DNA from: Dysidea avara
Taxonomy: Eukaryota > Porifera > Demospongiae > Dictyoceratida > Dysideidae
DNA length: 64,000 nt
Direction of reading: 5' to 3'
Assembly (NCBI RefSeq): GCF_963678975.1
Contig: NC_089281.1
Location: 4,737,277 to 4,801,276, forward strand
Part shown: one piece after another, positions 11,050-64,000 of the stretch
Layout: each line of letters begins with the position of its first letter
Position numbering within the stretch: position 1 is the first letter of the stretch
The notes under the pieces: generated by a model
The model's input: the letters and a program-made list of their open reading frames with translations, nothing else
Told to the model about the DNA's origin: nothing
The model's database searches: none
Program-made: the position numbers and the translations under genes

Positions 11050-11905
11050 TTATAAAAATGTCAGCTCAATAAGATCTACTGGTAAGAAGTTCCAATCATT
11101 AATTGTTCTTGAAAAATAACTATTTTGGTGTGCTGTGGTAGATACATGTGGTAAGATGTAGTGCAGTGGATGGTACTGTCTCGTGGATCGTGATGTTGGT
11201 AGGTAGTATGGAGGAATTGTAAGTGATATCTGTTGGTAAAAAACTTTGTGTAATGTTTGTAGTCGAGATAATTTGCGGCGAGTCTGGAGAGTTGGCCATG
11301 AAAGCTGATTTAACATTGAGGTGACAGAACTAAGTCTACCATAAACATTCATTACCCAGCGTGCTGCTCTTCGTTGTATTTTTTCTAGCTCTACAATATC
11401 TCCAGTTTGGTGAGGGTCCCAGACATCAGATGCATATTCTAGTTGTGGCCTGACCATTGTTAGTTAAGCAAATTCTTTAACTTGTTTTGAACATTTGTTT
11501 AAGTTGCGTTTCAGGAAATTAAGTGTTTTAGATGCTTTAGTAACAATACTAGAAATGTGTGGTGACCAAGATAGTGATGTATTAAGGATTACTACCAAGT
11601 ATAAGTATGTTGATCGGGGATGATATAGATTTAAGATGTGATTATTGAGGGTGTAGACGTGATTGAATGGTGTCAAGGATCTTGTACAACATATGACAGT
11701 ACATTTACTAACATTGAATCTAAGTTGCCAGGTGTTTTCCCATTCTGATAACCTATTCAGGTCTTCTTGAAGCATGTTGGCATCTTCTGCACCGTTACTA
11801 ACTCTGTAAAGTAGACAATCATCAGCAAACAAGCGGAGTGGTGAGTTGATAGTAATATCATTAATGTACAACAGAAACATTAATGGTCCGAGCACTGTGC
11901 CTTAT
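11050..11905 (-). pseudogene. 5'-truncated non-LTR reverse transcriptase remnant
   Basis: On the minus strand, 11895-11464 encodes the RT palm end: LGPLMFLLYINDI, the catalytic FADDCLLYR box, FNVSKC and an SWSPHI thumb region. 11457-11050 continues with the C-terminal RPQLEYASDVWDP, IQRRAARWV and WNFLP. The two parts are separated by an in-frame TAA at the place where a Tyr codon is expected (FA-stop-LTMVRPQ). Upstream of 11905 the match ends abruptly, which is the usual 5' truncation of LINEs. Confidence 0.85.
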
Positions 11906-14577: not shown

Positions 14578-14959
14578 TGGTGGATCAGTCTCCAGCACCC
14601 TGCAGACCTAGTGGTGAATGCAGAAAACTGAAAATCTCATGAGATTTTTTTTTTGCATTTTGAGTGTTATGATCTCATAGCTAACCATGTGCTGTTGAAC
14701 TACTTGGTAAAGAGGGCTAAATGCTTTAGTCTATATACCAGATTTTCTCCCAAAAGTCATTATTAAATGTTTACAGTAACACAGCATATAGCCACAATTT
14801 TAACTTGGCTGGTCTCTTGCATTAGATCTATACATGGCATTAGATCTATACATAGCCAGTTATGGTAATTCAAATGGCAGAGCTGGTACCTGATCATGCA
14901 TTGTTCCAAAAGTTTGCTATGTAAATCATGCTGGCATGAACTATAAGAAATTCTGGAGG

Positions 14960-18868: not shown

Positions 18869-21800
18869 ATGAGGATGGCTGAAACAAGTATCGAAATGTT
18901 TACTGGAGTGTTCAACAACACTGCCGGGATCGAGGATGGGATGCCCTCGGGGATGCCGGATCAAGTGGATGCAGAAGCCACTGAGGCGGTGTCCAATTTT
19001 CCTTCAAAGAATTGCACAGCTCTTTCTACCTTGGATCTTACCGATGTTGTCACCAGGTTAACTATTGGTAACGAAGAGTACTGGGGTACTGTGAGTACAG
19101 CCTGGCTATCGGTGTTTTACGTTTACGTCATTGTATGTTGTCCTCTTTTGTTGATTGTAAATTTCCGGTATCTCTGGATTCTGTGGAAAAAGTTGCGATC
19201 CGCTAAGATCAAGAATAATTTTGCTATGATTCTGATATGCAACTATTGTGTGTGGTCATTCACTGGTGTCATTCATCAACTATTACTGATAATTGAAGTG
19301 AACACAGCTAACCAAACTCTTGCAGTTACTTCCAAAATATTTCATCAGTTATCCTTTACCACTTTGATAAATGGCCTCACCATAGTAGCAGTGTTTGAAT
19401 ATTTTCTTTTACAATATAAATTTGGCAATCGATCGGTGATTAGCTATTCTCTTTGTGGTATTCCTACTTTCTTAATAGTTGTGGTGATAATTGTCATTTT
19501 GCTATCAGCAAGTGGTTCAGCACTTATAGTGATGGTAATATTAACGATGGCATTGGTTCTTATTGGAGTAGGTTCTTCCACTGCAATGGTTATAATGACA
19601 TACCGAATCAGACACCAAAGGCTTAAATCTCTATACAAAGTGGTCTTTACTAGTTATATCTTTTTGATGTTGTTGTCTTATCATTTGGTTAATGCTTTGG
19701 TCAAGGTAATTGCTAATAAAAACTGTGTTGAGAATGCACAGGGGAACAGAGTTAGTTGGTTAATCATACAGTGTATTATAGTGCTGCTTGAGTTAATAGT
19801 TGGATATCTTATTGCCGATTTTGTGAAACCATGGAGACAACAAGGGCATATACAGCAACCTCATTTAACTATCAATGTGAACAGTGTCTTACAAGCTGAT
19901 GCCTTCCATTGTGGTACAAAATCTACCAGAGATCAGCTATTGCAAGGCATTGTGAGTGACTCATTTGAAGCAAAAGTAAACATGACAAAAACAATTGAGA
20001 GTGCAGCCACAGGTGCGGCTGCTGATGAATTTAGCAAATTAGAAAGCAGACCAAAAGAACCCAGCAAAGAAACAAAATTGCGAGAATTCAATGATAATGG
20101 TGGTGTAAAACCTACTGTGGCACGCATTGAATATGTCCCATTACCCTTAAATAATAGTATAGAAAGAGAATGCTTTTCTCATTCTTTTGATACAGAATAT
20201 AGCCTTGAAAGAAACTCTCGTTTACAATTGGAAAAGTCAGGTAACTTTTATGATATAAACACTCTTTCATACCACAAACCTGACTGCAATAGCTTTACAC
20301 CTATTCCTGCACTTGAGTTCAGTTGCAGATCAGTGAGAAATAATGCTTCCCTTATATCCACGCTACATGGTAGGTCTGAGTATATGCATTGCACATTATA
20401 TAATATAATTTCAAATTGTGAATGGGCCTGTGAAAACAGGGTATGTACACCCCATCGCGCAACAGGTAATATCTCTATATTGGAATGGAATCTTTGCATT
20501 CTGTAACTTGTATTACAAAGCCAATCAAATGTGTAGTAACGGCTAAGAAATTCATGGCCATAGCACAATGACACCGAAAGGTACGAGCGATGAAAGTTTG
20601 AAAAAGGTAGGCAAATTTTATGTGCCCACATGCCCTGTTTTTGCAGACCTGGCCACAATGGGTAAAGTAGCAGAAGTGGTAGACACTTGCCTGTAATGGG
20701 TGCACACATGACTCTTAAGCAATGACCAAGCTTCAACTTAAAGGTCTTAACAAAAATGAAGTGTGTATGGTACATGTCTTAAACAGCCCATTAGGTCAGG
20801 CTCATGCCGCATTAATCTAAATTTTTTGCAAATTTATTGTAGCTACCCCAGTATAATTAGTCATCACTACATACATGTGTATATATCCCTGCATGCACAG
20901 ATTTTTGCATAAATTATGCAGTCTATTTAGTACATTCATTCTATTATTATAACATACAATTAATTGAAATTGTTTATTCCAGTTGAGGTAGTTCCTGCAC
21001 ATTCACCAGTTGACACTGACAATTTGATTGGTGACATTGAAGTTGGTTTATTTGATGAAAGAGGAGGAGTATTTCACTCATACAAACATGGAGTAACTGT
21101 TGTAGTTCCAACTGGAGCCATCCCCATTGGAGTACTAGCAGAACTGAAATTTGCAGCCACTTTAGTTGGTAACGTCAAGTTCACTAACAAATCACCTGTG
21201 TCTGCCATATACTGGCTGTGCATGGATGTGGAATTACAGAAATCTATTGAATTACGTTTACCGCATTTTGCTGATATTGCAACCCCAATGAATGCGCACA
21301 ATCTACAATTTGTTAAGAGTATACATTCTCCAAGTGATACAATTGAAGGATCCATGTTTACCATTGATGGTGGAAGGTTTCCTATTGGTGAACCTTATGG
21401 GTTAATCCAAATAGATCATTTCTGTTACTACTGCATTGCAGTAAACAAGTTGGAACGTACCAGCATCCCTAATAACAAGTATAGTATAGTTGCTATAACA
21501 CAAAGGCAACCAGAGAAATCTGAATGGACTGCTCACATCTGTATTTTACCATTAATACGAACATGTATAGAGGTGAGGATTACTACGTATCCATTTAGTA
21601 CATTTTAATTTGCTTACATTTCATTACATTCAGAAATTAAAGGGTCAATATGGCAGTGAATGGAACTGTCAGTCATTGTCAGAATTTTCATTCACACAAG
21701 GATGTGACCAAGTATCCATTGAGTGTCAAGGATACAACCTTCAAGGCATGGCTGAAGTTGTTCTATTGTCAAACAATGAGGTAGTTACATATGTATATGG

Positions 21801-24800
21801 TAGTACTATAGTAGTGATCATAAATAAAGGTTCAGGCATTCCTGCTGAAAATCATCCAACTTCACCATTCTTTATGGCAGCTCAACAGCATTGGTTAGAC
21901 ATACAGTGGAACCTCTCTATTATGAACATTTTGGGACCAGCCACTTTTTGCTGAGGTTTTCCTCTTTCTGAAGTATAAAACTTATTAACCAGACCTGTTG
22001 GGACCAAAAATTTTGTCCTTATTATGGAGGTATTTTTCTATTGTGTCCTTAATTTGGGGAATTTGTTAAGAGAGGTTCCACTGTAATCAAACCCAAATTA
22101 ATGTGCCTTTAGAACAACCTTATATGTTTTCAACAATTTTCTACTAAGTTTTAAATTATATACTGAATTTTCTTCTGACTGACAGCATGCCTCACTGACT
22201 TACTGACTGATGCAAGGATAATTTATTTATTTATTTATTACTGTGTAGGACTCCATCAAGGAGTATAACACACAGATACAAAAACAAAATCAAAGTAAAT
22301 TCAGATGGTTTAACAAAATGTCCTTAAAACAGTTTATAGATGGCTGATTGACCACATCTTCTGGCAAAGTGTTCCATAATTTAATAATGGATGGTAAAAA
22401 GGAAAATAAGTACTAGTTGAGTATGGTTAAGACTTCAAATTCACTGTTCAATATCGATTTAGCCTCCAAGAGTGCTTTTATGATCCGCAACAGCTACAAT
22501 GCATGCATCATGTACTTAAATTTGTCCTCCTTTGTGTTCCATTGTATATTTTCTCTTCTATCATGAATCGTCCACTATTTCTTTAGTATGAGGATTGATT
22601 GCAGAGGTGTTTCTCATACTGCTCTTTGTTCATAATGCATTAAAACAAAGCAGAATAGCCAAGTTCCTTGATAGTGCATATAGTTGTATAGTTGTTAACT
22701 GGCTGTGTTATGTGGACTGGTGCTGGCTCAGTAATGAATTATGCACAAAGTAAACAAATGAGGAAAAATATTGCATTTAAGTAAGAATCACAACAAAAAC
22801 TTTGGTCATAACTATACTACTGACAGGGTGCAATACTGAAGTAGGAATTAAATGTCCACAGAGATGACCTCCCCTGTTTCATTTCTATGGTCTCTACTCA
22901 AATGTAAAGTTTTTAATTTTCCCTGAGCCATAAATGCTAAATATCCTTGTAGATTTATCAGCAAGATGTAGACTTCCACCATTATTATGAAAGTAATTGT
23001 TTGGATGAATTACGATTAAGAATGGATGAAAAACTTTATCCACCACGTTTTACTGTTGTGGTACATGCCAAAGACAAAAAAATGTTTGAATCCTCAAGGT
23101 ATATGAACTACAAACTCACCAGTGGTACAAAGACAATTAGTGGAAAGTTAACTATGCCTAGCATTGGTAAGAGCTTGTAAATATTGTACACAAATATTAT
23201 GTATTGTATGTGTGATCTATAGATGTGTTTGGGCTAAGTTCAAGTGGATCTGATTCCTCTTTTAAAAGGAAAAAGTATAATAGTGGTACAAGTGGTAAGA
23301 TGTATATAGATAATTTAGTGGATATTTATATACTAGCCTTTTAGGATATAGAAGTGATGATAGTATTGAACATCTTCCAGACGAACACGAATTTGTCACA
23401 GGTGTGTGTAATGTGGATGTGTGTATGCATGTATGTCTGTGTCCATTTATGCACTTATCGGATTATGTATGTAGCTACTTTTATCTTCTGCCAAGGACTT
23501 AAAGTAATTATTTGTAGTATAGCTACCTATTTAGTTTTGTATATGTTTTGTATTGTGTGTATTGATGTGCTGTATATGTGTGTGTGCTCTGGTAGGGAAG
23601 AATGACTATTGCTGACTACCATGACATTAAACTAAAAATCAAATCAACTAAATCAGCTATATCTCAGCTATGACAAAAACCAAGTGTGAAACAATACAGC
23701 CATGCATCCTGTTTTAATTTTCATTTTTATTCTCTGGTTCCTGTTTTTTGAAAGGCTGCCAGATTTCAAAATTTTAAACTGTATATACTAAGCTATAGGG
23801 AAACTGTAATATACAACGTTATGGCAAAAAAAAAAAAAAAAAAAAATTCTGGTAAAATATTTATTAAGTGTGCAAACTCATTTAGCTCCAGTTTAGTAAA
23901 GAACACAAAAAACATTTGCTTAATATGTGTATGCATGTGTCTGGTCTGGGGAACTGGTCTTATCATCTATTACAAATACACTACCATATTTCACTGTCAA
24001 GAGTTGATTTGCTGGTTGCATTTTCCAAACCCACGCAGTGGTAAGCCACACAAATAGTCTGAGGTCTTAACAGAGCTCTGGCTAACGGGAGATGTGGCTG
24101 CACAGCTGGATAAAGACTTAGGCTGCACATAAGTTTCAACTCATTACTTGGTCTAATTTATCATACAACTTTTTCTTTCATTTTGAAAATAACTCTTATT
24201 GACCCTTGTTCATCATGAAGCTCACCTGATATGGTCAATGTAACATAAACCGATATAAAATGGTAGATAATTTAGCTGATTGGCTACAGTAGATGCTCTG
24301 GAATTTAAGGAATTGGTGTATGTGTGAAACTTAGCTTCAACCATAAGTGACTGGATTTTGGAAAAATGACCCAAATTGCACATTAGAAGTTTCGAGATTA
24401 ACAGTTTTAAAGAATTTAATTTAGCATAACTTACCAAGGTTAGTGAGCACACATGAAATTTACACAAGAGATGTATCAATCTATTACCTTTCAGACCACT
24501 TCCACTACAGCTAGTAGCTGCTTGTAGAGTTCCCACAAAAGAAGATAGAAATCTGAGCAAATGAAGTAGTATCATGAGTGCTCACAAAGGGGCAAAAAGT
24601 GTGGGGCTGGTGGGGTAGGCAAGAGTTAGACTCAAAATGGATGCAGACCATGATTGCAGAAACCACCATGTGCACCGCTTAGAAAAGACACCTCTTAAAA
24701 CCAGCCTCGGGTAGTTTGATGGTCAAAACCAATAGTATGATAGTGTAGCCATCCACTGGTGGTGTTAGTTTGATTTTCCTGATGTGCCATTTGGATTGGT

Positions 24801-27800
24801 TTTGTAAAACACATATATATAAGCTACAACATTCTAAATATTTATAATTGTGTTTCTCAAATAGGCAATAAGACCAGGGCCTCCCAGAAACAGTCACAAA
24901 TGATGGTAGCTACATAATTTATTATTCAACAGGAAAGTTACAGTTCAGGAATTTGATGGTGCTAACTATGTCAGTTAATCCCAAGTGGTTTACTCTTGGA
25001 TGTGCTTTGTGTGTGCCCATTGACAAGTTGGAGAGACTTGGTGATAAATATCACGATAATCCAATGAAAGCTCTTGTTAGGGTATATCGCTACTGGTTGG
25101 CTGATAAGAATGGATTACAGCCTACATGGGAGAAACTGCTTGGTGCCTTACAGAAGATCAACGAGTACAGATTAGTTACTAGTTTAACGAGAACACAATT
25201 GGTGAATTTCATATTTACTCTAAACAATACTGCATTCAGGCTTTTAAAGTGCTTGCCATGCATATATATGTATTGTGGATTATGTCAGATATACTTAACA
25301 CTGAATTAATCTACATGCACATATTAGGTGCAGAGGAGGGCGGACACAATTTAAGTGCTGCTAAAATATATTATACAAATGGTTCATTGAAAACATGTTG
25401 AAGAACACTATGCTTATGACAGGAGCGCCAAGCAATGTTTATTGCTGCTTTGTATGGCATGCGAAGGGCTGAAGTAATTGCACACAATATATGTGACATT
25501 ATTAATATACGTGACATTATTAATATACGTGACATTATTAATATACGTGACATTGTTAATATTGCCTTAAACTAAAAACCAAACGTACCATTTCAATACT
25601 CAATTCAATTATCCAGTAAGTCCCATTCAACCCCACAGATTTATATTCACTCACATGAAATAACAAGTGGAGCTATGCATTAAAGCAATAATTTTACGTA
25701 GCATTTAAAACATGTCTGCTCTCTTCTGTATTGGGTGTACATGTATTTATTAAGGGTTTTTTAGCAAAAAAAATAGAGGACACAGCACATGCCCAAGATG
25801 CTATTATAGCAAAGCCAAATGTCTTGTTCTAGCCATAGATGGAGCTATGTAGTTCTAGACCTCTACATGCATGGTGGATAATTCCTATATATGGAAAATA
25901 TAGTATTCATGATCCCTTTGTTGCTTCCACACAAAATTCCTACACTTTTAGAGCTACCATAATGCACATTGGTATACCATATTGGTGTTTTGATCCATTT
26001 ATTATGCAGTATTATTTCATTTACAGGGGGATAACCACCATGTACAATACTCACCAGTGTTTTATGGTAAGAATATTCTGTTGCTATTTATAGTACATGT
26101 ATGGGATTCTAAATGGGGCAGTTGTACACTCAATTACAGTGTATTAAAATTGGATAGGTGGAGGGGTAAAAGTAAAGGAACAAAAGACTTGGCTGCTTTT
26201 AAGCATAAATAAGTTATAGAAAGCATCTAATCAACTGTACGAAATGGATTCAACTTTACCAAAGAGATAAACATATTACAAAGGCCTGTCTGTACAAGTC
26301 ACAATCCAGTGCAAAACACAATCCACATACATAATCAAACACAAATGTGACTGGATTTTAGAAAACCAATCCAAATCGCACATTAGAAGTTTCGAGATAA
26401 GAGATAAAATGTTTTAAAGACTTTAAGCCATTGTATAACTTGCCAAGGGAAGTGAGCACTTACAAATCAGACCATTTCCAGTACTTGTAGCTGCTTGCAG
26501 AGTTTGCCACCAAATAATATAGAAAATCTGAGCAGTTGGACAAGCAAAGTAGTATCACAAGTGGTCACAAAAGGGTGGGAGGCAGGGATGGGGGGGGGGG
26601 GGATGGACAAGGGGTTACACTTCAAAATGGAGGTATAGCATGATTGAATCCATACATCTGATATGTAGCAAAGACCACACAGAATACGTTTGGCCAACTA
26701 TGTGAGGCCATCCACCTGTGCACCATTGCTTCTCATAAATCCAGGTCCTTCACAAGGCTATAAACTGCCATTCAGGCTTGCCACACCACTTAGAAAAGAC
26801 ATCTGTTAAAACCAGCTTTGAGTAGTTGTCATAATTCTGAGGGTTATATTATAGCCTTCTCACAGGTCCCTAGTGGGAAAGCATTTAATAAAAAATAAAA
26901 CTATTAGTACGATAGTGTAGTTATCCACTGGTGGTAGTAGTTTGATGTTGCCTAGTGTGCAATTTGGGTTGTAAAATCTGGTCACAGATAATAATTAAGT
27001 ACACTGTAGACACAAAAGAAACAACAGTAAAGCAGCCACAGACAAGACATGATAATCACTATACAGCAACTAGTCATATAGAGTGCGTACAGTGGAAGGT
27101 TGAATGGCGATTAATGTCTTAAAATATCACAGGCACTGTATTCCACACAAAACAGGTATGGAAAAAGGAATGCCTTCTAGTGTTGATAGTTGAAGAGAGT
27201 GCATAGAATAAAAATGATGAACCAGTGATTTAATACCAACTTTTCTTGTTAAACCAGCTGAGATATATAGATTGTCATAACTCACACTGTTCATGTGTCT
27301 GCAAAAGAAGACCAGGCAATGTGACGATTATCTTTAATTTTTTATATGAAGTAGCTACCTCATCTGTGAAATTATTTATAATTATAATAATAATAATAAC
27401 ATTTTTGTCTTTTAGATGACTGCAGTGAGCCAGAAAAGGAGTTGGTCATGAGGAACATTAGACTGGAGATGTTGAATCTCACAGCACTAATACCGGTGCT
27501 CAACAAACACCACTTACTCACCCTGGATGATAACTATGTGTTGTTGAACTACTTGGTGTCCCCAATGGAGAGGGCTAATGCTTTAGTCTACCAGATTCTT
27601 CCTAGTAAAGGACCAGAGGCCTTTAAGAAATTTATAACATGCTTGCAGGAAGAAACTGAACACATAGGACATCAGGAATTAGCAAGAATACTAACTACTC
27701 TTAAACGTAAGTGTAGTAGGAATGAAAGAATTTTTCCAGTAAACTTTGAGCCATAATAGGTTGGTAAGACCAGGCAAAATTAATTCACAGTCGATCGTCA

Positions 27801-29016
27801 CTGACTGCATGTGCATATTTCAATATTTACTCCAAATTTTTCATTATTTATTTTTGAGTTATATTTAAAACAGTATTATGGCTAGCATATACCTTATACC
27901 TAGGAATATATGGGCTTGAAACTCCCATGCATTTTGGATTCTCAATTCTTTAACTTCCTAAGATCAAGATACTCTAATACAACAATCAAATCCTCTCTAA
28001 TAAAACAGTCAGGCACTGCTGAGTCTGTATGTATTACTATTCTATGCATATTTGTGTAAATAGTCTAGTAACCTATGATTTACTATGATTTACTACACCT
28101 GTACATGTATCTCACAGATGGTCTGGCTCTAACTGAAAGAGCCAAGTTCCAGGTACTTTTTAAAGGCTTGTACCAAACTAAGGGGATACTCCAAAGTATA
28201 ATGGTATATGTGGTCAAGTAACAGAAATGCTGCATTACACTAATCTTATGCAATGATTAAATAATTAATCAAGACTGGCGTTGGCATACTATGATAGCTA
28301 TATCAATTTTGCATATGAAACTTGGTGGATAAATCTAGCTGAAATGCAGATTAGCAACGAGTTCTGAAGTACTATATAATTAAAAGCGAAAAAATGACTT
28401 CCTGCCTTTATGCTTTTTTTGAAAACTCATTGATGACATGCAGTAGTGAATAACTATCATATGCATGTAAATTTTCAAGGTACGCAATTTTCTTGGATTG
28501 ACAAATTTCAGCAGTTTTATTTTTGAGGATCAGTTGTTTTTCACTGATGTTATCTCATACAGCTAACGCCGATAATCAACAATTTTTGAGGATAAAAATT
28601 TTGTGGAAAGTTGAGCAACCACAAAATCCGCTAAAATTATGTCCCTCAAAATTATATACCTGGCTTAAGCACAAAAATTGGGCCCTTCCATAAAGTGTAG
28701 CTATTAATTAATTGTACTAATCACTACTGTTTAAGCAACCTCCCAGCCTTGTTGTTTGGGGCATAGCTAAATTTAAGTGACCCTATCAACCTACTGTAGA
28801 GAGAAAATACCAATACAGTTACTAGTGTTATTGCAATGTGGCCTATTATAATAGCACAGACACTGACTTTTTGTCTTGATTGAATAGAGCAGTTTTACAT
28901 GTATAGAGCCATTCTAGCTACTCAGGTCCATGCATTCTTATTGTATATTTTATTTTCAATGTATAATTATTTGCTTTTTATCTTACACAGCAAAGATGAT
29001 GGAAACAATGGTGTGA
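18869..29016 (+). CDS. 7TM-ZU5-UPA-like-Death-CARD receptor, gene 1
   Basis: Ten exons keep one frame of 1,068 codons: 18869-20369, 20983-21572, 21634-21780, 22953-23166, 23223-23294, 23345-23401, 24933-25201, 26027-26066, 27416-27706, 28991-29016 (stop TGA), all GT..AG. Residues 1-75 form a short ectodomain with NNT and NCT sequons; seven hydrophobic helices follow at about 76-106, 118-142, 157-183, 192-213, 217-245, 255-281 and 294-318, then a tail to 500. Next come ZU5 (about 501-697; DERGGVFHSYKHGVTVVVP), a UPA-like segment (698-817), a Ser-rich linker, Death (about 861-950), a 13-residue micro-exon, CARD (about 964-1060) and a final PKMMETMV. Expected role: plasma-membrane receptor recruiting Death/CARD adaptors. 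No DRY motif is seen and the 7TM family is not recognised. The ATG at 18869 is chosen; a GTG-initiated frame three codons earlier is not plausible in a eukaryote. Confidence 0.82.
22218..22915. repeat. Dispersed repeats in intron 3 of gene 1
   Basis: 22218-22490 begins with (TTTA)n followed by CTGTGTAGGACTCCATCAAGG and resembles the inverted 3' part of a retroelement, with related text near 2670-2760 and 54390-54850. 22540-22915 is a copy of family R1 (see 1880-2335). No coding potential is visible. Confidence 0.45.
23930..24870. repeat. Dispersed repeat family R2, copy in intron 6 of gene 1
   Basis: The segment GTGACTGGATTTTGGAAAA..GCACATTAGAAGTTTCGAG (from 24347) and the following 300 bp recur at 26345-26650. 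24660-24800 recurs at 26780-26990 (TTAGAAAAGACATCTSTTAAAACCAGC..ATCCACTGGTGGT). The leading part, 23930-24120, also recurs in gene 3 introns at 57360-57620 and 61140-61400. Non-coding. Confidence 0.65.
25491..25560. repeat. 18-bp tandem repeat in intron 7 of gene 1
   Basis: About four copies of GTGACATTATTAATATAC, the last with a G replacing A. It is the source of a spurious MSRILI-repeat reading frame on the minus strand. Confidence 0.85.
26225..26990. repeat. Dispersed repeat family R2, second copy (intron 8 of gene 1)
   Basis: Same orientation as 24235-24870 and aligned with it over most of its length, with a poly-G insertion at 26587-26601. Together the two copies bracket the Death exon and the micro-exon of gene 1. 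Confidence 0.65.
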
Positions 29017-40037: not shown

Positions 40038-43000
40038 ATGGGAACAAACATTCACATGGAAACGATCCAGAAGAATATGACGAGTGACGACATCAAGCTC
40101 GAGTCTGATATACATAGTAACGAGAGCTTGAGCGAGAGTTTAACCACACTGAATTGTACTACTCTAACTAACTTGGATCTAATAGATGTATTCACCAAGT
40201 TAAGTATTGGTAACAAGGATTTTTGGGGTACCGCGAGCACTCTCTGGTTAGCTCTTTATTATATCCACTTCACCATATTCTTCACTTTATTATTAATCAT
40301 TACTTGTTGGTGTGGACTAATCCTGTGGGAGAAGGGACAATCAGTGAGAAAACATGCTTCACTTGTGTATGTAGTGTCAACTTATTGTGTGTGGTCATTT
40401 ACCAGTGCCACTTATTATGTGTTATTAACTATCGGGGTAAATAGCCTGGCCAGCCGACAACTTGCAATAACTACTGAAATATTTGAAATATTATCTGTGG
40501 CTAGTTTGATGAATGGACTGTTAGTGACTGCAGTCTACCAGTACTATCAGTTACGATTTCACGTGTACCAATCTATTAAAAAGTACATAGCGTATACTAT
40601 TCCTTCTCTGCTAACAGCTGTGATCATCATCATTGTTTTACTATCAACAAGTGGCTTAGCACTTATAGTATTGATGGTACTGACTCTAATGTTGGTTATC
40701 ATTGGTTTGGTAGGTACCACAACTTTAGTAGTGATGTATACAGAGCTCTGGTTCAGAACAAAGACAAGTCGAAGCTTACATGGAAATTCTGCTAGAAAGG
40801 TACTAACACGGCGATTAGTTGTCAGAGTTTTAACTTTTGTGTATTTACCAGTACTGACTTGTAGTTTGGTAAATTGTTTAATCATAGTGATCATAAATAT
40901 GAACTGCATTGAAAATGCTCAGGGAAGCAGATTTCTGTGGCTAGCCGAACAATCTCTTCTCAAAGTATTTGAGCTGCTCTTGATTCTACAATGCCTTGTT
41001 GTGCCGCAAAGGTTACAGAAGATTATTAATAAAATCTTTTGGTCATCAAAACCTGTGAAAACAACACAATCATCAATAATGAACAAATCAATCATAAACA
41101 CTCTATCACAACCAGAAGATTTTAACGTTAGTTGGTTTATGCAGTCAGTGAGGTTAGAAACATGTGCACCCTGGGGCAGTATTGAAATGAGAGCAGAAGA
41201 AAACAAGAACACATCTGATAGTGCGTCTAAAAGTTTACCCTTATCAAAAACTAGACCACAACCTGCTCAGTTTCAAGCATCTGCACTGACTGTACAGCAA
41301 CCTCCCAGACATGTCAAATGTATTGCTCTGCCTCCAAATGTAAGTAATGCAGTGGAAAATGAATACCTATCTCATGCATGTGGCCCTACATATAACCCTG
41401 AAAGAAAAACGTATTTGAAAATTGAAGAGATTACTAGTGTACATGAAACAACTTACCATAAACCCGATAACGGCAACTTCATGAACTCAGTCCTCACTGA
41501 CATTCCATTACAAGAATCATTGAAGGGTGATACTCTTTCTTTATCACCGCTACATGGTAAGTCTTATATTTATAGCTATAGATGTGTATTATAGCTACTG
41601 AGCTTGTCTGATGTTTGAGAATACACCTATAGTCAGCTGCCATTTGTCATTTGTATGGCATGTATTTGTTTGTATACTTAATACTACTTTCCTGGTAGTT
41701 GGTTATCATAAATTCATTGCTGTAGACCATATTAGGGACTATAGTATTTAATTACAGTTTCATGCATGGTGTTTCCTTAACATATATGGATAGCACGTGA
41801 CAATATAATTTGATATTTCCTTCAGTTGAGGTAGTTCCTGCACATTCACCAGTTGACACTGACAATTTGATTGGTGACATTGAAGTTGGTTTATTTGATG
41901 AAAGAGGAGGAGTGTTTCACTCATACAAACATGGAGTAACTGTTGTAGTTCCAACTGGAGCCATCCCCATTGGAGTACTAGCAGAACTAAAATTTGCAGC
42001 CACTTTAGTTGGTAACGTCAAGTTCACTAACAAATCACCTGTGTCTGCCATATATTGGCTGTGCATGGATGTAGAATTACAGAAATCTATTGAATTATAC
42101 TTACCACATTTTGCTGACATTTCAGATGCAACACACAATCTACAATTTGTTAAGAGTATACATTCTCCATTTGATGTAATTGAAGGGTCTATGTTTTCCA
42201 TTGATGGTGGAAAGTTTCCTATTGATGAACCTTATGGGTCAATCCAAATAGATCATTTCTGTTACTATTGCATTGCAGTAGACAAGTTGGAACGTACCAG
42301 CATCCCTAATAACAAGTATAGTATAGTTGCTATAACACAAAGGCAACCAGAGAAATCTGAATGGACTGCTCACATCTGTATTTTACCATTAATACGAACA
42401 TGTGTAGAGGTGAGGAATACTAGTTAGTGTTTAGTTCACCTTTGCTCTATACTGTTAGAAGCTAAAAAGTCAATATGGAAGTGAATGGCAGTACCGGTCA
42501 CTATCAGAGTTCTCCTTCACTCCAGGATGTGACCAGGTGTTTATTGAGTGTGAAGGACATATCTTCAAAGATAAGGCTGAAGTTGTGCTGCTGTCAAATG
42601 ACGAAGTATGTATTAATCTACCAGGGAGGGCACTGGGGTTGCTGAATTAGATCCCCTCCTCTCTAACATTTTGCTAAGTGCTAAGCTAGATAGCTTGTAC
42701 ATGTGGCTGGAAACAGCAAGTAAAATTTTAAAATTAAACCAGTTGAAAATCGAAAATGCTATAACATAACAGTAACTATATGCATTTCAATGAAGACCTA
42801 CTCAATGAAGTGTGTAAACTATCGGTGAAGTGAACCTCTTCTTGACACTCTGCCCTGTAATCTCACCATTTCTAAAATCCTATTCCTTACCAAATTAAAC
42901 TATACCTTGTAATGCGATAATCCATATAATGTTACTAATTATATATTTGTGTTTTTGAAAACCATTCCAAAAAAAACTTATTGTACCTAAAATAGTAGAT

Positions 43001-46000
43001 ACTTTAAAGGTAATAACTCTGGTGAAATTTTTAACAGCTTTAAAACTATATAATAAGGCTATATGCATTGTCTGGGAGCTCAGTTAGTAGACAGCTTAGA
43101 GATTATCCGTCAATAATTATAGGCTCCATGGCTCTATGTAACTAAAAATTAGTACATGACAAAAATGTGGCCACTTACTACATGCATATTGGATATGCTA
43201 TACACTGCAAATTAATTTAGCACTCAAAATCCTTGTCTATGTTGTAAATTATGTCAAAGTAATATATATAAATTTGTTACCTGTGTGCGCAGATTTACCA
43301 ACAAGATGTAGACTTCCACCATTATTATGATAGTGATTGTTTGGATGAATTACGGTTGAGAATGGATGAGCAACTTTATCCACCACGTTTTACTGTTGTG
43401 GTACATGCCAAGGACAAAATATTTTTTGAATCCTCAAGGTATATGAACTATAAACTTACCAGTGGCACAAAGACAATTAGTGGAAAGTTAACTGTGCCTA
43501 GCGTTGGTAAGCTATAGCTAGTGCTTGTAAATGTTGTACATAAATATTGTGTATTGTTTGGGTGATATCTGTAGATGTGTTTGGGCTAAGTTCAAGTGAA
43601 TCTGATTCCTCTCTTAAGAGGAAGAAATATGGAAGTTTCACAAGTGGTTAGTGGCTTCCTGAACTACGTATATTGAATTTTATGCACACAAATACTGTTA
43701 GGATACAGAAGTGATGACAGCATTGAGCACCTTCCAGATGAACAAGAGTTTGCCACAGGTAAAACTATAAGAATTACCCATGATTTATATGAAGTTTTAA
43801 ATTGGCTTACACTATATATACACATTAACTCTCAGGGTATGTTTTAATTTATCATTTTACAGGAAAGTTACAGTTCAGGAATTTGATAGTGTTAACTATG
43901 TCAGTTAATCTCAAGTGGTTTGCTCTTGGATGTGCTTTGTGTGTTCCCATTGACAAGTTGGAGAGACTTGGTGATAAATATCACGATAATCCAATGAAAG
44001 CTCTTGTTAGGGTATATCGCTACTGGTTGGCTGATAAGAATGGATTACAGCCTACATGGGAGAAACTGCTTAGTGCATTACAAAAGATCAACGAGTACAG
44101 ATTAGCTACTAGTTTAACGAGAACACAATTGGTGAGTTAAACAAACTGTACACAAATAAAGATACTTCCTCATGAAACTTTACATGGGGAAACTAAATAA
44201 GTTATAATTAATAAGTCATGACTGCTGATTACTAATATGGTCAAGTGGAATTTGCTGACGTTATATATGCACAGTTGTACTGCATCAACTAGTACCATTT
44301 ACGCTTTTAATAAAAATATCCACATCATTTCATAACATTGCTATATTAGGATCAGATTGCATCATAGCAGGGGGATTATTATTATTATTAAGACTTTAAA
44401 TCTTTATCATAGTTAAGTCATTAACCGAATGTAATTATCATTATCCTGTTGTTTTAATAATAGAGTAAAGATCAATGTCTATCCTCATCTGTGTTTAATG
44501 GTAAGGGATTTATCATGTTTATAAATGTTTTGAAACATTGCATTATATGTGTGGGTGAAATGTGGGTGGCAAAAAATTATGTGGTTTATTTCTAGACCAC
44601 ACTTTGAGCATGTGGTGATGATTACCTGCAAGAAGTATATGACATCATGAACTCAGTTCTTAGACCATTCATCAATGAAAAAACACCTAATTCATGATTA
44701 CTAATAGCAGAAAGGATATTGCACTGGCAATCAGTTATTAGAAATTGGGTAGTAGTCCATTACATACTGGGTATATAGTTTGTCAGGGAACTGGGTAGTA
44801 GTCTGTTGAGGTTTGTGTTCAACCCAAGTGATGAATGACTTTAACATGTTAATGGCAACACCCTATAGGTAATGTGCGCGTGGCTACAGATTCAAGCATT
44901 GCACACCCCCAGGGTGCAATGGACAAGATCACCGTTTACTGAAGATTTTAATATATTTATATACATGGCTTAACTAATACAACAGTTGCCTATCTATATA
45001 CACCACCCTTTCACCCACAAGATCCATGCCAGCTAAGTTGCATGGTTCCCAGCTTTGTGGAAATGTTAAATGTTAGGATAAAATCCAGTAAATTAGGCAA
45101 TGACAGAGTATGGTACAGTTCTTAAACCTTTTAATTATGTAATGATTGATGCAATTATAATCACTTCATTCTGAGTTCACATTCTACACCTACACCCAGT
45201 GTGTCAACTTCAATTCAACATGATACAATGAACAATATCAAATATTGTAAACCTCTGAATCAGCACCTGAAGCAGGATGGGAGCAAAAAAGTTTACCTTG
45301 CAGCTAAAAGTTTACCTTGCAGCTAATCATGTACTGAACAATATAAAATAGTTAATCCTGAGTTAATCAGCAAAATTAATAAAAATTAGAAAATTTCTTT
45401 CAATTTGCCAATATCACCAAACTTTAGTCATGTCAAACTTTTGCCATTTATGGTAAGTTAGTTCATGTTCTACACAGTACCATTATCAAAAATAGAATCT
45501 CATATATGCTATCAAGACACACGGTAGTGTGTCGTGCGGCCCAAGAAGCCGGCGCGCAACATCAGTGAGTATATTGACAGGAAGAAAGAAAACGCAATTT
45601 TTGCACCTCCGTAGCTCTGTGTTGCCTTGATGAAACAAGACGATTTTTGCTGTGGACACTCCCTCAAACTTCAGCACTCCACATTACGAATTTGAGCGAA
45701 ATCGCTTCTAGCGTTCACGAGATATGCGACTTCAAAAATTGGCTTAGTTTCTTCGTTTTTTTTCTTCTTATTTTTCTTCCTCTTTTCGCACACTTACAAA
45801 AACTGCTATAAAACGCGAACGCCATATCCGATTGCCTTGAAATTTGGCACACAGAAGGGGGGTATAAAGGCACATCTCGGCACCAACTTTGGCTGGAATA
45901 CGATAAACAGGCAAAGCGTTATGAGCGATTATTCACTAAAAATAACACCAATATTGTGTCACGCCTACAGAGTAAACCGCGTATGGGAAGAAGCTGAAAA

Positions 46001-49000
46001 TCGGTGGGTGAATAGGTTAACTATTAAACCTCAAACCTGTTGTAGTTTGAAAGAAATTGAGCTAAAAACCAGGAAGATACAACGAAAAAACCAACAGTGT
46101 GTAACAATTATGCAATCGAGATTAGCTAATAAAAAACCACTGCTTGCCACGCCTACCAGATAAACCGCTTAGGCTAATGCTTTGAAAATTGCTATACAGA
46201 TGGAGTAATTATCTTAGAAAGGCTCTTCAATGGTGTAGAAGAATCAGACTTAAAGCCACGGAGTTATAACACGAAATCCAACTTGGTGTAGCAAGTGCGA
46301 GATCGAGATACTCTAATAGAGCAGTCATCCTAATAGAGCAATCACCCTGAAGAGAATTCAAGAGATCAGCTAGAAACAAGTAAGCTGTATAGAGATCAGC
46401 TACAAACAAGTCACCCTGTAGAGAGATCAGCCACAAACAATTCACCCTGTAGAGAGATCAGCTAGAAGTAGGGAGTTCATGCAACTATGGAAAGAGATAG
46501 TTCAGCTAGAAGAAATCACCTTGTAGAGTTCAGCTACAAAGAAATCGCCCTGTAGAGAGATCAATAGAAGAAGTTACCTTGCAGAGAGTTCAGCTACAAA
46601 GAAACCATCATGTAGAGAGATCAACTACAAACAAATCTCCCTGTAGAGAGATCAGCTAGAAGAAGTTACCTTGTAGAGAGTTCAGCTAAAAAGAAACCTT
46701 CACGTAGAGAGTTCAGCTGCAAACAAATCACCTATAGAGAGATCAGCTAGAAGAAGTTTCCTTGTAGAGAGTTCAGCTACAAACAAATCACCCTGTAGAA
46801 AGATCAGCTAGAAGAAGTCACCTTGTAAAGAGTTCAGCTACAAACAAATCACCCTGTAGAAAGATCAGCTAGAAGAAGTTACCTTGTAGAGAGTTCAGTT
46901 ACAAAGAGACCACCATGTAGAGAATTCAGCTACAAACAAATCGCCCTGTAGAGATATCAATAGAAGAAGTTACCTTGCAGAGAGTTCAGCTACAAATAAA
47001 CCATCATGCAGAGAGATCAGCTACAAACAAATTTCCCTGTAGAGAGTTCAGCTAGAAGAAGTTACCTTGTAGAGGGTTCAGCTACAAAGAAACCATTCTG
47101 TAAAGAGCTCAGCTGCAAACAAATCACCTGTACAGAATTTAGCTACAAACAAATCACCCTGTAGAAAGATCAGCTAGAAGAAATTACCTTGTAGAGAGTT
47201 CAGCTGCAAAGAAATCACCCTGTAAAAAATTCAGCCACAAACAAATTGCCCTGTAGAAAGATCAGTTAGAAGAAGTCACCTTGTAGAGAGTTCAGCTACA
47301 AAGAAACCATTCTGTAAAGAGCTCAGCTGCAAACAAATCACCTGTACAGAATTCAGCTACAAACAAATCACCCTGTAGAAAGGTCAGCTAGAAGAAGTTA
47401 CCTTGTAGATAGTTCAGCTACAAACAAATCACCCTGTAGAGAGATCAGCTAGAAGAAGTTACCTTGTAGATCGTTCAGCTACAAACAATTCACCCTGTAG
47501 AGAGAGCAGCTAGAAAAAGTCACCTTGTAGAGTGTTCAGTTACAAAGAAACCACCATGGAGAGTTATGTGATAAATATGTAACTGTATTATATATATAAT
47601 TTGTACATTTACTGATAAAATATCTAAAGTACATCTGCTTCATCTTTTCTTCTTCCTGTGGTAAAGAAAAAATATAGGTTTAAAAAGTCCCAAAGCCGGC
47701 CTATCTTTAGGGTATGCAAATACAAACAGAAGTGAAATCTAATCCAAAACAGCCAAGCTGTAAAAAAAGTGTGCGGCCCTCAAAAGGGCTATAGTGAAAA
47801 AAGATGTGAAATCCAAGGTGGCGGCCAAGAAATGGCTGTGATGGTAGGTCAATGGTAAAAATTTTAATAATGACAATTCAGGTGAATTTTGGTGCCGTTT
47901 GGTCAATTGGCACAAAATTCACTTGAATTGTCGTTATTAAAATTTTTACCATTAACCTACCATCACAGCCATTTCTTGGCCGCCACCTTGGATTTCACAT
48001 ATTTTTTCACCATAGCCTTTTTGAGGGCCGCACACTTTTTTTTACAGCTTGGCTGTTTTGGATTAGGTAATATAAAACAAGCAAGTTAGTGTATCGTACA
48101 ACACTTTATATAGACCTTTTGTTGGCAATAAACCAGAGAATGATATCACTAAACTACATTTCTAGTATAGTCTCCACTCAATGGTAGTGAAATAGCCAGC
48201 AAACACTTTAACTGGTGCCGGTCATTGATTACTGATTATCATCTTACAGTAGCTAAATGTTAAAAATGGACAGTATAGTCAATAAGACTTTTTGATTTGT
48301 GAACACTTTTAAATCTGTATAAGACCCCTTGTTATAACAACTAAGGATTAATTATATACTGAAGCTTTCTTGTAAGACTATATAAAGCTCTCTCATTTTT
48401 AAACCTTGAAAATATGATGGCTTTACTTTAGATGACTCTAATGAACCAGAAAAGGAGTTGGTCATGAGGAACATTAGACTGGAGATGTTGAACCTCACAG
48501 CACTAATACCGGTGCTCAACAAACACCACTTACTCACCCTGGATGATAACTATGTATTGTTGAACTACTTGGTGTCCCCAATGGAGAGGGCTAATGCTTT
48601 AGTTTACCAGATTCTTCCTAGTAAAGGACCAGGTGTCTTTAAGCAGTTTATAATATGCTTGCAGGAAGAAACTGAACACATAGGACATCAGGAATTAGCA
48701 AGAATGCTAACTCCTCCAGCAAAGCGTAAGTGTAACTTATTCCTGTAAGGAACTTCTGTTGTTTACTGTATACTGTGGTACATGCAAACTATGATGCCAC
48801 ATGTGTGATGCATATTTTAGTACGTGTAGACAATATCCTCTTAGAGTTTTTGACTGTTCTATTAGAGTATCTTGATTAGTTATGAAATTATATTTCCCTC
48901 TAAATGCTATCCCACTAGGGGATCTGTGAGAAGGCTAAGCCAGTTAATACAGGGAGTTAGAAGTGGATGACATCTTTTTTTAAGCTGGAAAAGGCTGCAG

Positions 49001-49373
49001 GGAGGATGCTTCATGTCCCTTTCTATACTAGATGAAGTCTGCTTTGTATAGTGCCAAGGTTACATATCACTTAGCAGTAACTTGAGCAGAGTTGGGAAAG
49101 GTAGGGGGAGTAGGGGCATTCGCCCCAAATGCCTTATCCTGAATCTGCATATGTATATAATAATATTTATTTATACACATCACTTTCATACAATTTATTA
49201 TATTTGTACAATTTATACAGTACATTTACCAGGTATACAGGTGAATGTCGTTAGTTTATCTAGCAATTCACCTACCAATTAGTGACACTCATAAAAATAA
49301 TTTTACCATACGTAGAATTTCTTGACATACATATTTTTACCTTATAGCAAAGATGATGGAAACAACTGTATAA
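40038..49373 (+). CDS. 7TM-ZU5-UPA-like-Death-CARD receptor, gene 2
   Basis: Paralogue of gene 1 with the same ten-exon plan and phases, 1,072 codons: 40038-41556, 41826-42409, 42459-42605, 43293-43506, 43575-43646, 43702-43758, 43863-44131, 44464-44500, 48432-48725, 49348-49373 (TAA). Exon 1 holds an ectodomain with NMT and NCT sequons, seven helices (about 67-97, 108-132, 147-173, 182-203, 207-235, 258-287, 299-321) and a tail to 506. Shared 7TM landmarks with gene 1 are IGN..WGT, YCVWSFT, S.SG.ALIV, and C.ENAQG.R before helix 7. ZU5, UPA-like, Death and CARD exons are close to identical to gene 1, and introns 4 and 5 are recognisably homologous. The micro-exon differs (SKDQCLSSSVFN). Intron 8 is 3.9 kb and contains a minisatellite and a fold-back. 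Two independently intact copies make it unlikely that the 7TM-to-ZU5 join is a model error. Confidence 0.83.
44501..46290. other. Intron 8 of gene 2, first part, with unidentified GC-richer insert
   Basis: 44501-45480 is plain AT-rich intron. 45490-46200 changes composition: it is CpG-richer and carries reading-frame-like text (for example GGVTKAHLGTNFGW-type and CHAYRVNRVWEEAENRWVN around 45837-46040) without a conserved domain I recognise. It may be an old mobile-element insertion. The 45837-46163 frame is not called as a gene. Confidence 0.4.
46290..47565. repeat. Minisatellite with 61-bp higher-order unit in intron 8 of gene 2
   Basis: About 1.27 kb of tandem units made of two alternating half-units of about 30 bp: AGATCAGCTAGAAGAAGTTA+CCTTGTAGAG and AGTTCAGCTACAAACAAATC+ACCCTGTAGAG. 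Copies vary by point changes and a few half-unit losses. The left edge grades into AATAGAGCAGTCATCCTAAT-type text. Confidence 0.92.
47739..48066. repeat. Near-perfect fold-back with ~150-bp arms in intron 8 of gene 2
   Basis: The left arm (47739-47898; CTAATCCAAAACAGCCAAGC..) is inverted at 47917-48066 (..GCTTGGCTGTTTTGGATTAG) with very few mismatches and a spacer of about 20 bp. The transcript would form a very long hairpin. Non-coding. Confidence 0.9.
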
Positions 49374-55159: not shown

Positions 55160-58100
55160 ATGTTAGCAATCGCCTTGGTTATATTGTTGCTGACTGTACC
55201 GATGAGTTCTGCTAGAGGTACACGTACGTGAGTGTTATACACAGTTATTTTATCTGTATGCCTTCTACAACGAGAAGTTGTTGTCACGCACAGCATGGGG
55301 GACCCCCATGACGTTGTTCTACGCTATTTGCACTAACAGAGACCACAGATCGTGTAGTCTAAACACTGAATGCATTGCTACTATGTTGTCCTAATAGCTT
55401 GTAGTAAAATAGCTAGCTAGCTAACTACATGTTTTTTGAACAAAAATATAGCTAGCTAATCACGGTGACCGCAGCTACGTAGCTACCGCAAGAGTGTAGG
55501 TAAAGAACAACTTACTGAACGTGACACCATGGGTACCTATGGTCTTCTGGATACTAGGGACAGGCTATTGGTGATATCTATTTATACAGAGGCATTATTA
55601 TTTAGTTAGCTAACCCGTTACAATAATTTCATGTAGCCGCTATAGTTAGCCGATACCACTAGGAGTTGCCGCCTTTTATGCATGCTTAGCCATCCTTTAA
55701 CATTTGTCAAATTGGAGAGACCTGCTTATTTCATCAAAATTAGCTGTACACTTGCTTCAGTTTAACGACTAACTATCAGCAAATTTGAACTATATTATTC
55801 ATATCAGTCTTGTAGCAAATTTGTACCTTCAGGTAATATCTGTAGTAATGTGTATTCTTTGGTAGCACAAAGAAATTCAATGATCAAAGAAGTCATAATC
55901 ACTTCCTTAGTTTAAAGGTCACCATGTGCAGATAACAGATTATAGGTCATTGTAAAATGCCATGCAATAATAACAGCTATATAGTTTACTTATCAGTTAT
56001 CATAATGTACTTGTGGTGCAATTGTGTAGATGGACCACTGAATGTGACTATTAGTACTGATCCTCCACTTCATAATATGTTTTGTAAGAATGAGACAGTG
56101 ATCCTAATATGCACTGCCTCTGATGGTGCCACTCAACCAAACTACCAGTGGTCTACTGATAACCTTAGCATTGCAGGGCAAACCAGTAAAATTGTGGTAT
56201 ATGCTGCCCTTGAGCCAGTTGAATATCACTGTAAAGTAAGTGATGAAACTACTGGAAAACAGGGACAAGCTAGTATTACTATAGTTGTTGATGGTGAGTT
56301 AAGTAGCTACAGTTTTCATAGCTATAGATGCCAGTAAATGTATTCTTGAAGTGCCACGTTTACATCCACTAGTCATAATATCAATCCCTGCATTATGTAT
56401 TTTGTTATCAAAGTGCATGGTTACCATATCAATACTCCAACAAAGCAATCACATTATGAAGTTTAATATTTGCTACTGCAAAATTGTTATATCATTACCA
56501 TATGTGCATAAATGAAACTTTAGTGCTTCATAAGTACTCACATTAAAAGATACGTATCAGTTGAAAGACATAAACTTGCAGTATACCTACTATAGCTAAG
56601 GTGTCACAGTTATATAATAACAGTTATCTCCCATCAGATCTTCTAAATCAAACCCAGTATTATGCATTTTATCTATCATGAATGTCCGTGCTTTAAGTAA
56701 GTACAATGGTTATTGTTTCTTAAATTGCTGCAGTTCACTTAATCTCATGAAAAAGGTAGCAGTGACAAACTGTAAATTTACAGCAGCAATTTACATTTGA
56801 CCTTTATGGCAGCTTCTGCTGGACTACATGTATAGCTTACAACATGTGATGGTCATCATGCTTATCTGCACATGTTAGACTGTAAATTATGAGTACAAAG
56901 AGAGTGAGAGGAGGGACCTGAAGTGCTGAAGTAGACATGTTTGGTTGATGCTTACACATACTATAATGATAATTAGTGTGCTTTGTTGCTAGGAAACAGT
57001 GTGAGTTACAACCCTAAGGCCTGAGATGTGACTGTGAATACTTTTAAATAGCCATACCACTCCCATCTGATGTAAACACAGCTGTTAGTAGACCAGCAGT
57101 TGCCTTTATGTTTGTTGTACAGTTTTGTAGCAGTAAGCAGTATGACTTGCTTAGCCATAAAAGTCATGCTCATTCAAGTGGACTTTATCTGTTACAAAAT
57201 ACTCAGTGTGTCCTTAGAAGATTGCTTTATGTACAACTTGTCTCTAAATGTCGCAATGATATCAAAATTGGTGAAATGCTTTTCGTTTTAGTCCAAAAAC
57301 CTTAACATTTTGACTTATGTGAATGAGACCTTGCAAAGTGTCAATGTAATCCATTTATGTGACTGGAAAACCAGTCTTATCATAAGTTGCCAGTGGAAGT
57401 AGGTTAGATTTTTTTGCCACAAACACAAACTACATGGATCAGTATACACTATCAAATTTCACTGTCAAAATCAGCTGGGCTCTAGTGGTCTGCTTTTGCT
57501 GGCAGCTTTTTTCAAACACACAGTGGCAAGTTTTATGAGTGGTCTGGGGCATTAATAAAGCTCTTGGTACCTGGAGATGGCAACATGTGGCTGTACAGCT
57601 CCGTGATGTTGAATAAGATCTATACTGCAGGTAGTTAGGATCTCTCAGTCTCAATGCATATGTGCATTGAAACAATCTTCAGTAGTTGCTTTCTGTTTAA
57701 ATAAGATGGAATTGTTGCAGTTTGCATATTAGCATCCTGTGCCAACCTCACAATACCTTTATGGTGCCTTGGTGGGTATAACCAAGCCCAAAAGTACCTT
57801 CAGTGTGACCTGAAACACTTGAGGTTGCTATAAACTTAAAAAATATTATTTAGTGGAATTTTCTAGCTGATTGCCTGACTGCCTGACTGATTGACTGACT
57901 GACTGACTGACTGACTGACTGACTGACTGACTGACTGACTGGCTGGCTGACTGACTGACTGACTGACTGACTGACTGACTGACTGACTGACTGACTGACT
58001 GACTGACTGACTGACTGACTGACTGACTGACTGACTGACTGACTGACTGACTGACTGACTGACTGACTGACTGACTGATGCCTTCAGACAAACGTAACAT

Positions 58101-63591: not shown

Positions 63592-64000
63592 GTGCTGTTC
63601 ATGCATGCATGAATACTGTAGTCCGACTTTATATATAGTTTTATGCACATGTAAACATTTGTCATAGCTACTTAGTTGGAGGATACCCATATAGCAGGTA
63701 AATTTTGAAGAGTTTTTAAAATTAACTTGTTGCAATTTGATCCAATGTTTTGACATGGGCACATATTATTCTTCTACACCATTAATGAAAGAAACGGTTA
63801 ACCAGTATCGATATTTCAAATCAATCTTATAGCCATGCAGTGAACTGCTGATCCATTTTCAAAATTAATGCCAACTGCTGTCTACAATTAGACTGGGTGT
63901 TGATAAGAATTTACTCTACTCAAGACTCCTCCTGTGGTCTGTTCAGTGCATGTGGGTTGGCAGTATGTCAGTTGTTGACAAGCATTTTGTATCCTTGACT

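Follow-up and report, generated by a model that had tools for sequence, protein, structure and literature searches.

A predicted sponge gene joining seven hydrophobic helices to a ZU5 domain and to Death- and CARD-like domains

Gene A joins a seven-helix exon to a ZU5-containing tail

The window analyzed here is a stretch of 64,000 nucleotides from Dysidea avara, a demosponge of the order Dictyoceratida (contig NC_089281.1, positions 4,737,277 to 4,801,276 of the forward strand). At 18869-29016 on its plus strand lies a gene of ten exons, here called gene A, in which an exon predicted to encode a seven-transmembrane (7TM) region is followed by exons for a ZU5 domain and for Death- and CARD-like domains (Table 1). 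The exons form a single frame of 1,068 amino acids plus stop, all nine introns are GT..AG, and the junction between the 7TM exon and the ZU5 exon (20369/20983) is in phase 1. This structure had been proposed from the letters alone (hereafter the sequence-only reading) and agrees with a database model, P0001 (862 aa; "uncharacterized protein" at NCBI, "isoform X2" in UniRef), which is identical throughout to exons 1-6 plus 8 of gene A. Because P0001 spans the 7TM-ZU5 junction, the junction is supported independently of the sequence-only reading, whose gene structure is confirmed in the DNA.

Table 1. Positions of the features of gene A and of related receptor genes (window coordinates unless marked C10, the contig that carries the window).
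Feature	Position	Strand	Remarks
Gene A exon 1	18869..20369	+	N-terminus, seven-helix region, predicted cytoplasmic linker; 500 codons + 1 base; residues 1-500 of P0001
Gene A seven hydrophobic helices, residues 69-324	19073..19840	+	7 hydropathy peaks (4 homologues); 7 long helices in low-confidence models
Gene A exon 2	20983..21572	+	ZU5; Pfam E 3.2e-7, above cut-off
Gene A HFC, residues 646-648	21417..21425	+	End of ZU5; candidate self-cleavage site, cf. HF/S and SF/S in PMC3210808
Gene A exon 3	21634..21780	+	Between ZU5 and Death, possibly UPA; splice model
Gene A exon 4	22953..23166	+	Possibly UPA; splice model; residues 501-816 have 89% identity to gene B
Gene A exon 5	23223..23294	+	Ser-rich linker; splice model
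Gene A exon 6	23345..23401	+	Linker; splice model
Gene A exon 7	24933..25201	+	Death-like domain; left out of isoform X2 (P0001)
Gene A exon 8	26027..26066	+	Linker; early stop if exon 7 is skipped
Gene A exon 9	27416..27706	+	CARD-like domain
Gene A exon 10	28991..29016	+	Final codons and stop
Gene B (paralogue) 7TM exon	40038..41556	+	Open frame, 531 aa
Gene B tail, ZU5 to CARD	41826..49373	+	9 exons, as in NCBI P0002
Sibling Ig1 (NCBI P0006)	55990..63594	+	Immunoglobulin exons, one helix, ZU5; runs on past the window end (64000) with the same Death-CARD tail
Gene C 7TM exon	C10 4721892-4720373	-	
Gene C ZU5	C10 4719661-4719131	-	
Gene C Death	C10 4714185-4713919	-	92%

The P0001 isoform omits the Death exon, and the stop that follows immediately removes both Death and CARD. 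The donor of the Death exon (gtgaat) is weak, but its position matches that of the donor in gene B, a paralogue described below. A shorter Death exon (donor at 25175) combined with an extra exon at 28118-28152 had been considered and was dropped after the exons of gene B had been mapped. Translation possibly begins at the second Met (18875), where the homologue P0004 starts. Note that two of the protein searches (those with 7,990 and 5,663 scored candidates) and one alignment used an earlier, 1,063-residue version of gene A, which is 9 residues short after Death and has a different C-terminus from the 1,068-aa model.

That two genes have been wrongly joined, a 7TM gene with its own 3' untranslated region and a separate ZU5-Death-CARD gene, is highly improbable. 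In its favor, exon 1 is long and undivided, 7TM genes often consist of a single exon, and no cDNA was seen. Against this, the same 7TM-ZU5 junction is present in two database models (P0001 and, for gene B, P0002), and its splice donor and acceptor are conserved at three loci (genes A and B, and gene C as read by eye). Moreover, P0004 reads through LHGR at the end of the 7TM exon in the same donor context, which fits use of the same donor.

Exon 1 is predicted to encode a seven-helix, receptor-like region

Hydropathy averaged over four homologues gave seven peaks. Peaks 4 and 5 are only 15 residues apart. Both fall in a continuous hydrophobic run of 60 residues (188-247), which includes a short SASGSA turn and has room for two helices. 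Lys and Arg were denser in the predicted inner loops in all four homologues (for gene A 13/63, vs 3/28 in the outer loops, with helix borders set by hand). Two AlphaFold models each contained seven long helices at very low confidence, with a predicted local distance difference test score (pLDDT) of 36.1 (from 2 sequences) and 41.5 (from 4 sequences). The seven hydrophobic helices first noticed in exon 1 are a prediction with which hydropathy and, at pLDDT 36-41, both models agree. Between genes A and B the 7TM core has fewer amino-acid changes than silent sites predict (amino-acid-changing rate, dN, 0.47; silent rate, dS, 2.2, the latter near saturation).

When the low-confidence 7TM model was submitted to Foldseek, 411 matches were obtained at E<=10. 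The best 50 of the 411 were all G protein-coupled receptors (GPCRs), with a top E of 0.11, and no match was found at E<=0.001. With so poor a model, these GPCR-only rows are only a hint of likeness to the GPCR fold. DRY-type and NPxxY-type motifs mark class A GPCRs; a pattern search found both absent in all four sequences (A, B, P0004 and P0005). Neither P0004 nor P0005 matched a Pfam 7TM family at E<=1. Given the missing motifs and the lack of a GPCR match in Pfam or PDB (detailed below), we name this a seven-helix receptor-like region and not a GPCR of any class; the low pLDDT and the empty Foldseek result at E<=0.001 are why no class is claimed. Of the GPCR-like receptor in the sequence-only reading, the predicted seven-helix N-terminus is supported; identity as a true GPCR found no support in Pfam or PDB sequence matches.

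Conventional G-protein signaling by the 7TM part, with the tail as a scaffold or localization module that has no role in assembly, is very unlikely. The basic inner loops would fit such signaling, as would the exclusively GPCR rows among the best 50 of 411 in Foldseek, none of them significant. However, no GPCR family was matched by Pfam or by PDB sequence search, and the Death and CARD exons of genes A and B show a dN/dS of ~0.3, indicating that they are kept for some use.

The tail contains ZU5 and, less clearly, Death- and CARD-like domains

ZU5 in the gene A tail is a firm prediction, scoring above the Pfam cut-off on the exon frame. A PDB sequence search with the ZU5 alignment returned ZO-1 only (2/2 matches), not UNC5B. 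For the downstream domains, profiles were built from four homologous regions each and compared with PDB. All 12 matches of the Death profile were Death-domain proteins (10 FADD, RIPK1 and ankyrin-3; best E 0.019), and 5 of the 6 matches of the CARD profile were CARD proteins (best RAIDD, E 0.0032). With the Pfam profiles below cut-off, Death and CARD in gene A are weakly supported and are referred to as Death- and CARD-like. A UPA domain is suggested by position alone and is unproven. In the ZU5-UPA-Death-CARD tail as originally read, ZU5 is supported, Death and CARD are candidate domains scoring below cut-off, and no UPA match was listed at E<=10. No catalytic domain was matched in the tail by Pfam.

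Gene A belongs to a tandem family with 7TM and immunoglobulin sensors

Gene B (40038-49373) is likewise divided into ten exons, and its phases match those of gene A at 9/9 junctions. The whole of the NCBI protein P0002 maps to gene B. This model starts at an internal Met of the 7TM exon (40899), ends with the stop codon at 49373, and connects the end of that exon with ZU5, Death and CARD. A third gene of the 7TM type, gene C, carries the same tail; it is on the minus strand, ~15 kb beyond the window (C10 4701801-4721892), and its CARD exon is 91.8% alike. A scan for ZU5 across 550.8 Mb in 108 contigs listed 45 matches. Six of the 45 are on C10, all within 185 kb, and membrane-sensor exons lie upstream in 6/6: a 7TM exon in genes A, B and C, and immunoglobulin (Ig) exons in Ig1 (P0006), Ig2 and Ig3 (P0003). 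Death exons were found for five of these six receptors and CARD exons likewise for five; Ig3 extends past the DNA stretch examined, and its NCBI protein P0003 has weak matches to both Death and CARD. The Ig-to-ZU5 junction of P0006, read by eye, is in phase 1 as well. Three 7TM and three Ig receptors with the same type of tail thus form a tandem family with an exchangeable sensor and a shared tail, an arrangement absent from the sequence-only reading.

Elsewhere in the scan, 18 of the 45 listed ZU5 matches fell on a different contig, C12, at 4.10-4.40 Mb. There (L025 6204-9999 and L026 5567-9999), long exons that by eye resemble protein kinase, coiled coil and Kelch sequences precede a ZU5 exon.

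The Ig siblings bear on the possibility that gene A is a dependence receptor of the UNC5B kind, emitting a death signal when its ligand is absent and silenced when it is bound. With their Ig domains and single helix these siblings resemble UNC5, P0003 has a weak match to Unc5_NetrinR_N (E 0.0034, below cut-off), the order from ZU5 to Death is that of UNC5B, and dependence-receptor behavior has been described for UNC5B (PMC8358048). The additional CARD and the 7TM sensor are both unlike an UNC5B dependence receptor, and we consider this reading of gene A quite unlikely.

The tail was made alike more recently than the sensor

Genes A and B differ very unequally along their length. Identity is 41% in the 7TM core and 21% in the linker (dN 0.95, dS 1.34), vs 89% in residues 501-816 including ZU5 (dN 0.055, dS 0.26), 94% in Death (dN 0.024, dS 0.076) and 91% in CARD (dN 0.039, dS 0.138). 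The tail, being far closer than the 7TM part, was made alike far more recently. In DNA comparisons within one receptor class, Death and CARD exons show 94-99% likeness, with flanks near chance identity. In blastn the likeness between A and B stopped 18 and 7 bases beyond the Death exon (24933-25201 vs 43863-44131) and 5 and 9 bases beyond the CARD exon (27416-27706 vs 48432-48725). Ig1 and Ig2 show the same contrast at the DNA level (ZU5 71%, Death 99%, CARD 97%).

As a control, the 100 bases on either side of each Death and CARD exon were shuffled. Identity of the true flanks was 68-79%, vs shuffle averages of 70-74%; the alignment score exceeded nearly all shuffles in 3 of the 4 flanks, weakening the view that the introns are not alignable. 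Of three short introns compared between A and B under the same control, two were clearly alike and one was borderline. The exon limit of likeness is therefore real but not sharp. Conversion from cDNA could have produced this homogenization nearly confined to the Death and CARD exons, as could conversion in short tracts; constraint acting on synonymous sites is another option.

Relatives outside the cluster

Protein searches returned 3 matches among 7,990 scored candidates (E<=10), 3 among 7,997 (E<=1) and 6 among 5,663 (E<=10), and all named matches were from D. avara. Besides the models already described, these included P0004 (JGI, on a 3,041-base contig), which matched at 64% over the whole 7TM exon, and P0005 (317 aa), at 66% over 61%. 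P0007 and P0008 (NCBI, on a 54.7-Mb contig) combine NB-ARC with the same type of ZU5; 56% of the tail query aligns with them, at 38-39% identity. P0007 also has a weak N-terminal CARD match (E 0.0069), and the isoforms observed for P0007 and P0008 stop after the ZU5/UPA-like part, without the Death-CARD tail. No relatives were found in searches of viral contig and genome contig collections.

Within the window, frames at 11053-11901 and 14940-16670 resemble by eye remnants of non-LTR reverse transcriptase, and frames at 4909-6094 resemble, likewise by eye, a RecQ-type helicase.

A candidate self-cleavage site at the end of ZU5

The tripeptide HFC at the end of the gene A ZU5 is present in the ZU5 of 6/6 receptors on C10. 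In other proteins, self-cleavage directly after ZU5 occurs at HF/S (PIDD) or SF/S (CARD8 and NLRP1), and Ser, Thr or Cys are named as possible nucleophiles in reactions of this type (PMC3210808). By analogy, HFC, which gene A has instead of HF/S or SF/S, is a candidate cleavage site and nothing more.

A self-cleaving sensor like PIDD, NLRP1 or CARD8 could be built on this site. ZU5 would cut between F647 and C648 by an N-S acyl shift, the halves would remain associated, and a filament-forming UPA-Death-CARD fragment would be freed once the 7TM-ZU5 part was lost or displaced. The conservation of HFC ahead of Death-CARD and the naming of Cys among the possible nucleophiles would suit such a scheme, as would the filaments formed by the UPA-CARD fragments of NLRP1 and CARD8 (PMC7794386). 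However, Cys stands in place of Ser, and it may be structural given its Cys-rich neighborhood (CYYC). The relative P0007 retains the Cys but has QSC at this position. Moreover, the FIIND profile, like that of UPA, was unmatched (FIIND is unlisted on the whole 1,068-aa protein in Pfam at E<=10), and cleavage is a prediction from sequence. On balance we regard self-cleavage as unlikely. We are similarly doubtful of a wider proposal in which the protein would be a membrane-bound, inflammasome-like sensor: ZU5 would cut itself at HF|C, an outside signal would free a ready UPA-Death-CARD fragment, and the family would swap 7TM and Ig sensor exons while its tails retain Death and CARD exons that stay alike in each class. 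If true, 7TM sensing in an early-branching animal would be coupled directly to death-fold polymerization, G proteins playing no part.

Proposed mechanism

The reading we favor, at somewhat better than even likelihood, is that gene A encodes a 7TM membrane receptor whose cytosolic ZU5 clamps Death and CARD until the sensor opens the clamp and assembly is nucleated at the membrane. We infer a topology with the N-terminus outside, seven helices and a cytoplasmic linker of ~175 residues, after which the intracellular part continues through ZU5, a UPA-like stretch, Death and CARD. At rest, ZU5 would clamp the downstream domains, as has been proposed for UNC5B (PMC8358048), and the clamp would open when the 7TM part binds a ligand or clusters. 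Death and CARD, aided by UPA if present, might then nucleate an assembly on the membrane (cf. PMC7794386), to which a CARD-bearing caspase or adaptor would be recruited. Isoform X2, in which the Death exon is skipped, would be a receptor without Death and CARD and could damp the response.

In this proposal, the gene structure, the paralogues and ZU5 are observations; the Death- and CARD-like domains and the helix pattern are established more weakly, and the N-out topology, the clamp, the assembly and the recruitment are predicted steps. Several results weigh against it. For the sensor, the fold models are poor (pLDDT 36.1 and 41.5). No Pfam GPCR family was found on the exon-1 frame, where the one hmmscan entry at E<=10 is MMPL (E 8.2), and when the 7TM alignment was searched against PDB sequences, the 7 matches at E<=10 included no GPCR or other receptor. 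For the tail, CARD is below the Pfam cut-off on the exon frame (23.3 bits vs 23.9; E 6.8e-5), as is Death (15.5 bits vs 22.6; E 0.019). A scan of the joined protein, the check that had been suggested for the sequence-only reading, recovered ZU5 (E 1.4e-5) and CARD (18.3 bits, E 0.0024) and left Death and UPA unlisted at E<=10, in a Pfam listing whose filters discard most weak matches. For the genes, the structure of gene A is known from DNA and database protein models, with no transcript seen, and the sole database protein of gene A encountered (P0001) is without Death and CARD. The NCBI model of gene B (P0002) starts inside the 7TM exon at an internal Met and so is without most of the helices, though the frame is open upstream. 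Gene C has a 7TM frame interrupted close to helix 1 and a ZU5 exon with a diverged end, suggesting that this copy may be decaying.

By family resemblance only, an immune role of gene A is possible. In D. avara, expression of NLR genes rises on exposure to microbial patterns, and activation of apoptosis was inferred by the authors in both sponge species tested (PMC6208332).

Comparison with known systems

The sequence-only reading knew of no described 7TM protein with Death plus CARD domains, and this holds among the literature matches listed: no such protein appears in their titles or abstract openings (supplements, closed papers and preprints lying outside this scope). The D. avara genome has been reported to contain 39 CARD and 128 DEATH genes, with no 7TM fusion described in the accessible text (PMC12909245). 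The accessible text of a paper on Amphimedon GPCRs contains the word "death" 0 times (PMC4302439). Other shortcut receptors are known from amphioxus, e.g. TNFR-caspase (PMC2575513).

If the protein works as we read it, one molecule would reach from outside sensing to caspase recruitment with no separate relay. The family would show how an early-branching animal couples interchangeable sensors to one fixed tail for death or immunity, and would offer a compact system for asking whether a conformational change in a 7TM region drives ZU5 clamping and CARD nucleation.

Among known proteins, the UNC5 netrin receptors (UNC5B) are alike in being membrane receptors with a cytosolic ZU5 and then Death (Death-like in gene A), and the Ig siblings of gene A are closer to them still. 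Gene A differs in having seven helices instead of Ig-TSP and one helix, in its extra C-terminal CARD and in its unproven UPA. NLRP1 and CARD8 (FIIND-CARD) and PIDD share a ZU5 followed by a death-fold effector (Death- and CARD-like in gene A); a further likeness is the candidate cleavage motif where ZU5 ends. They are not known to be 7TM proteins, and gene A differs from them in having HFC rather than HF/S or SF/S and in the unmatched FIIND profile. The NB-ARC-ZU5 proteins of D. avara itself (P0007 and P0008) have the same type of ZU5 and, in P0007, a weak N-terminal CARD; unlike gene A, they carry NB-ARC, lie on another contig and have isoforms ending after the ZU5/UPA-like part.

In overall plan, gene A resembles the GPCR-bigrams (GPCR-PIPK, GPCR-TKL and GPCR-TK) of oomycetes, amoebae, choanoflagellates and sponges, in which an N-terminal 7TM region is joined to a C-terminal cytosolic signaling domain. 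GPCR-TK and GPCR-PIPK are present in sponges, in an account whose text lacks the whole word "death" (PMC12716839). Fusions of 7TM regions with enzymes are thus known in some eukaryotes, whereas fusions with death-fold assembly domains appear in none of the literature matches listed. The C-terminal domains described for GPCR-bigrams are catalytic (PMC6033456), while the tail of gene A would consist of non-enzymatic assembly domains.

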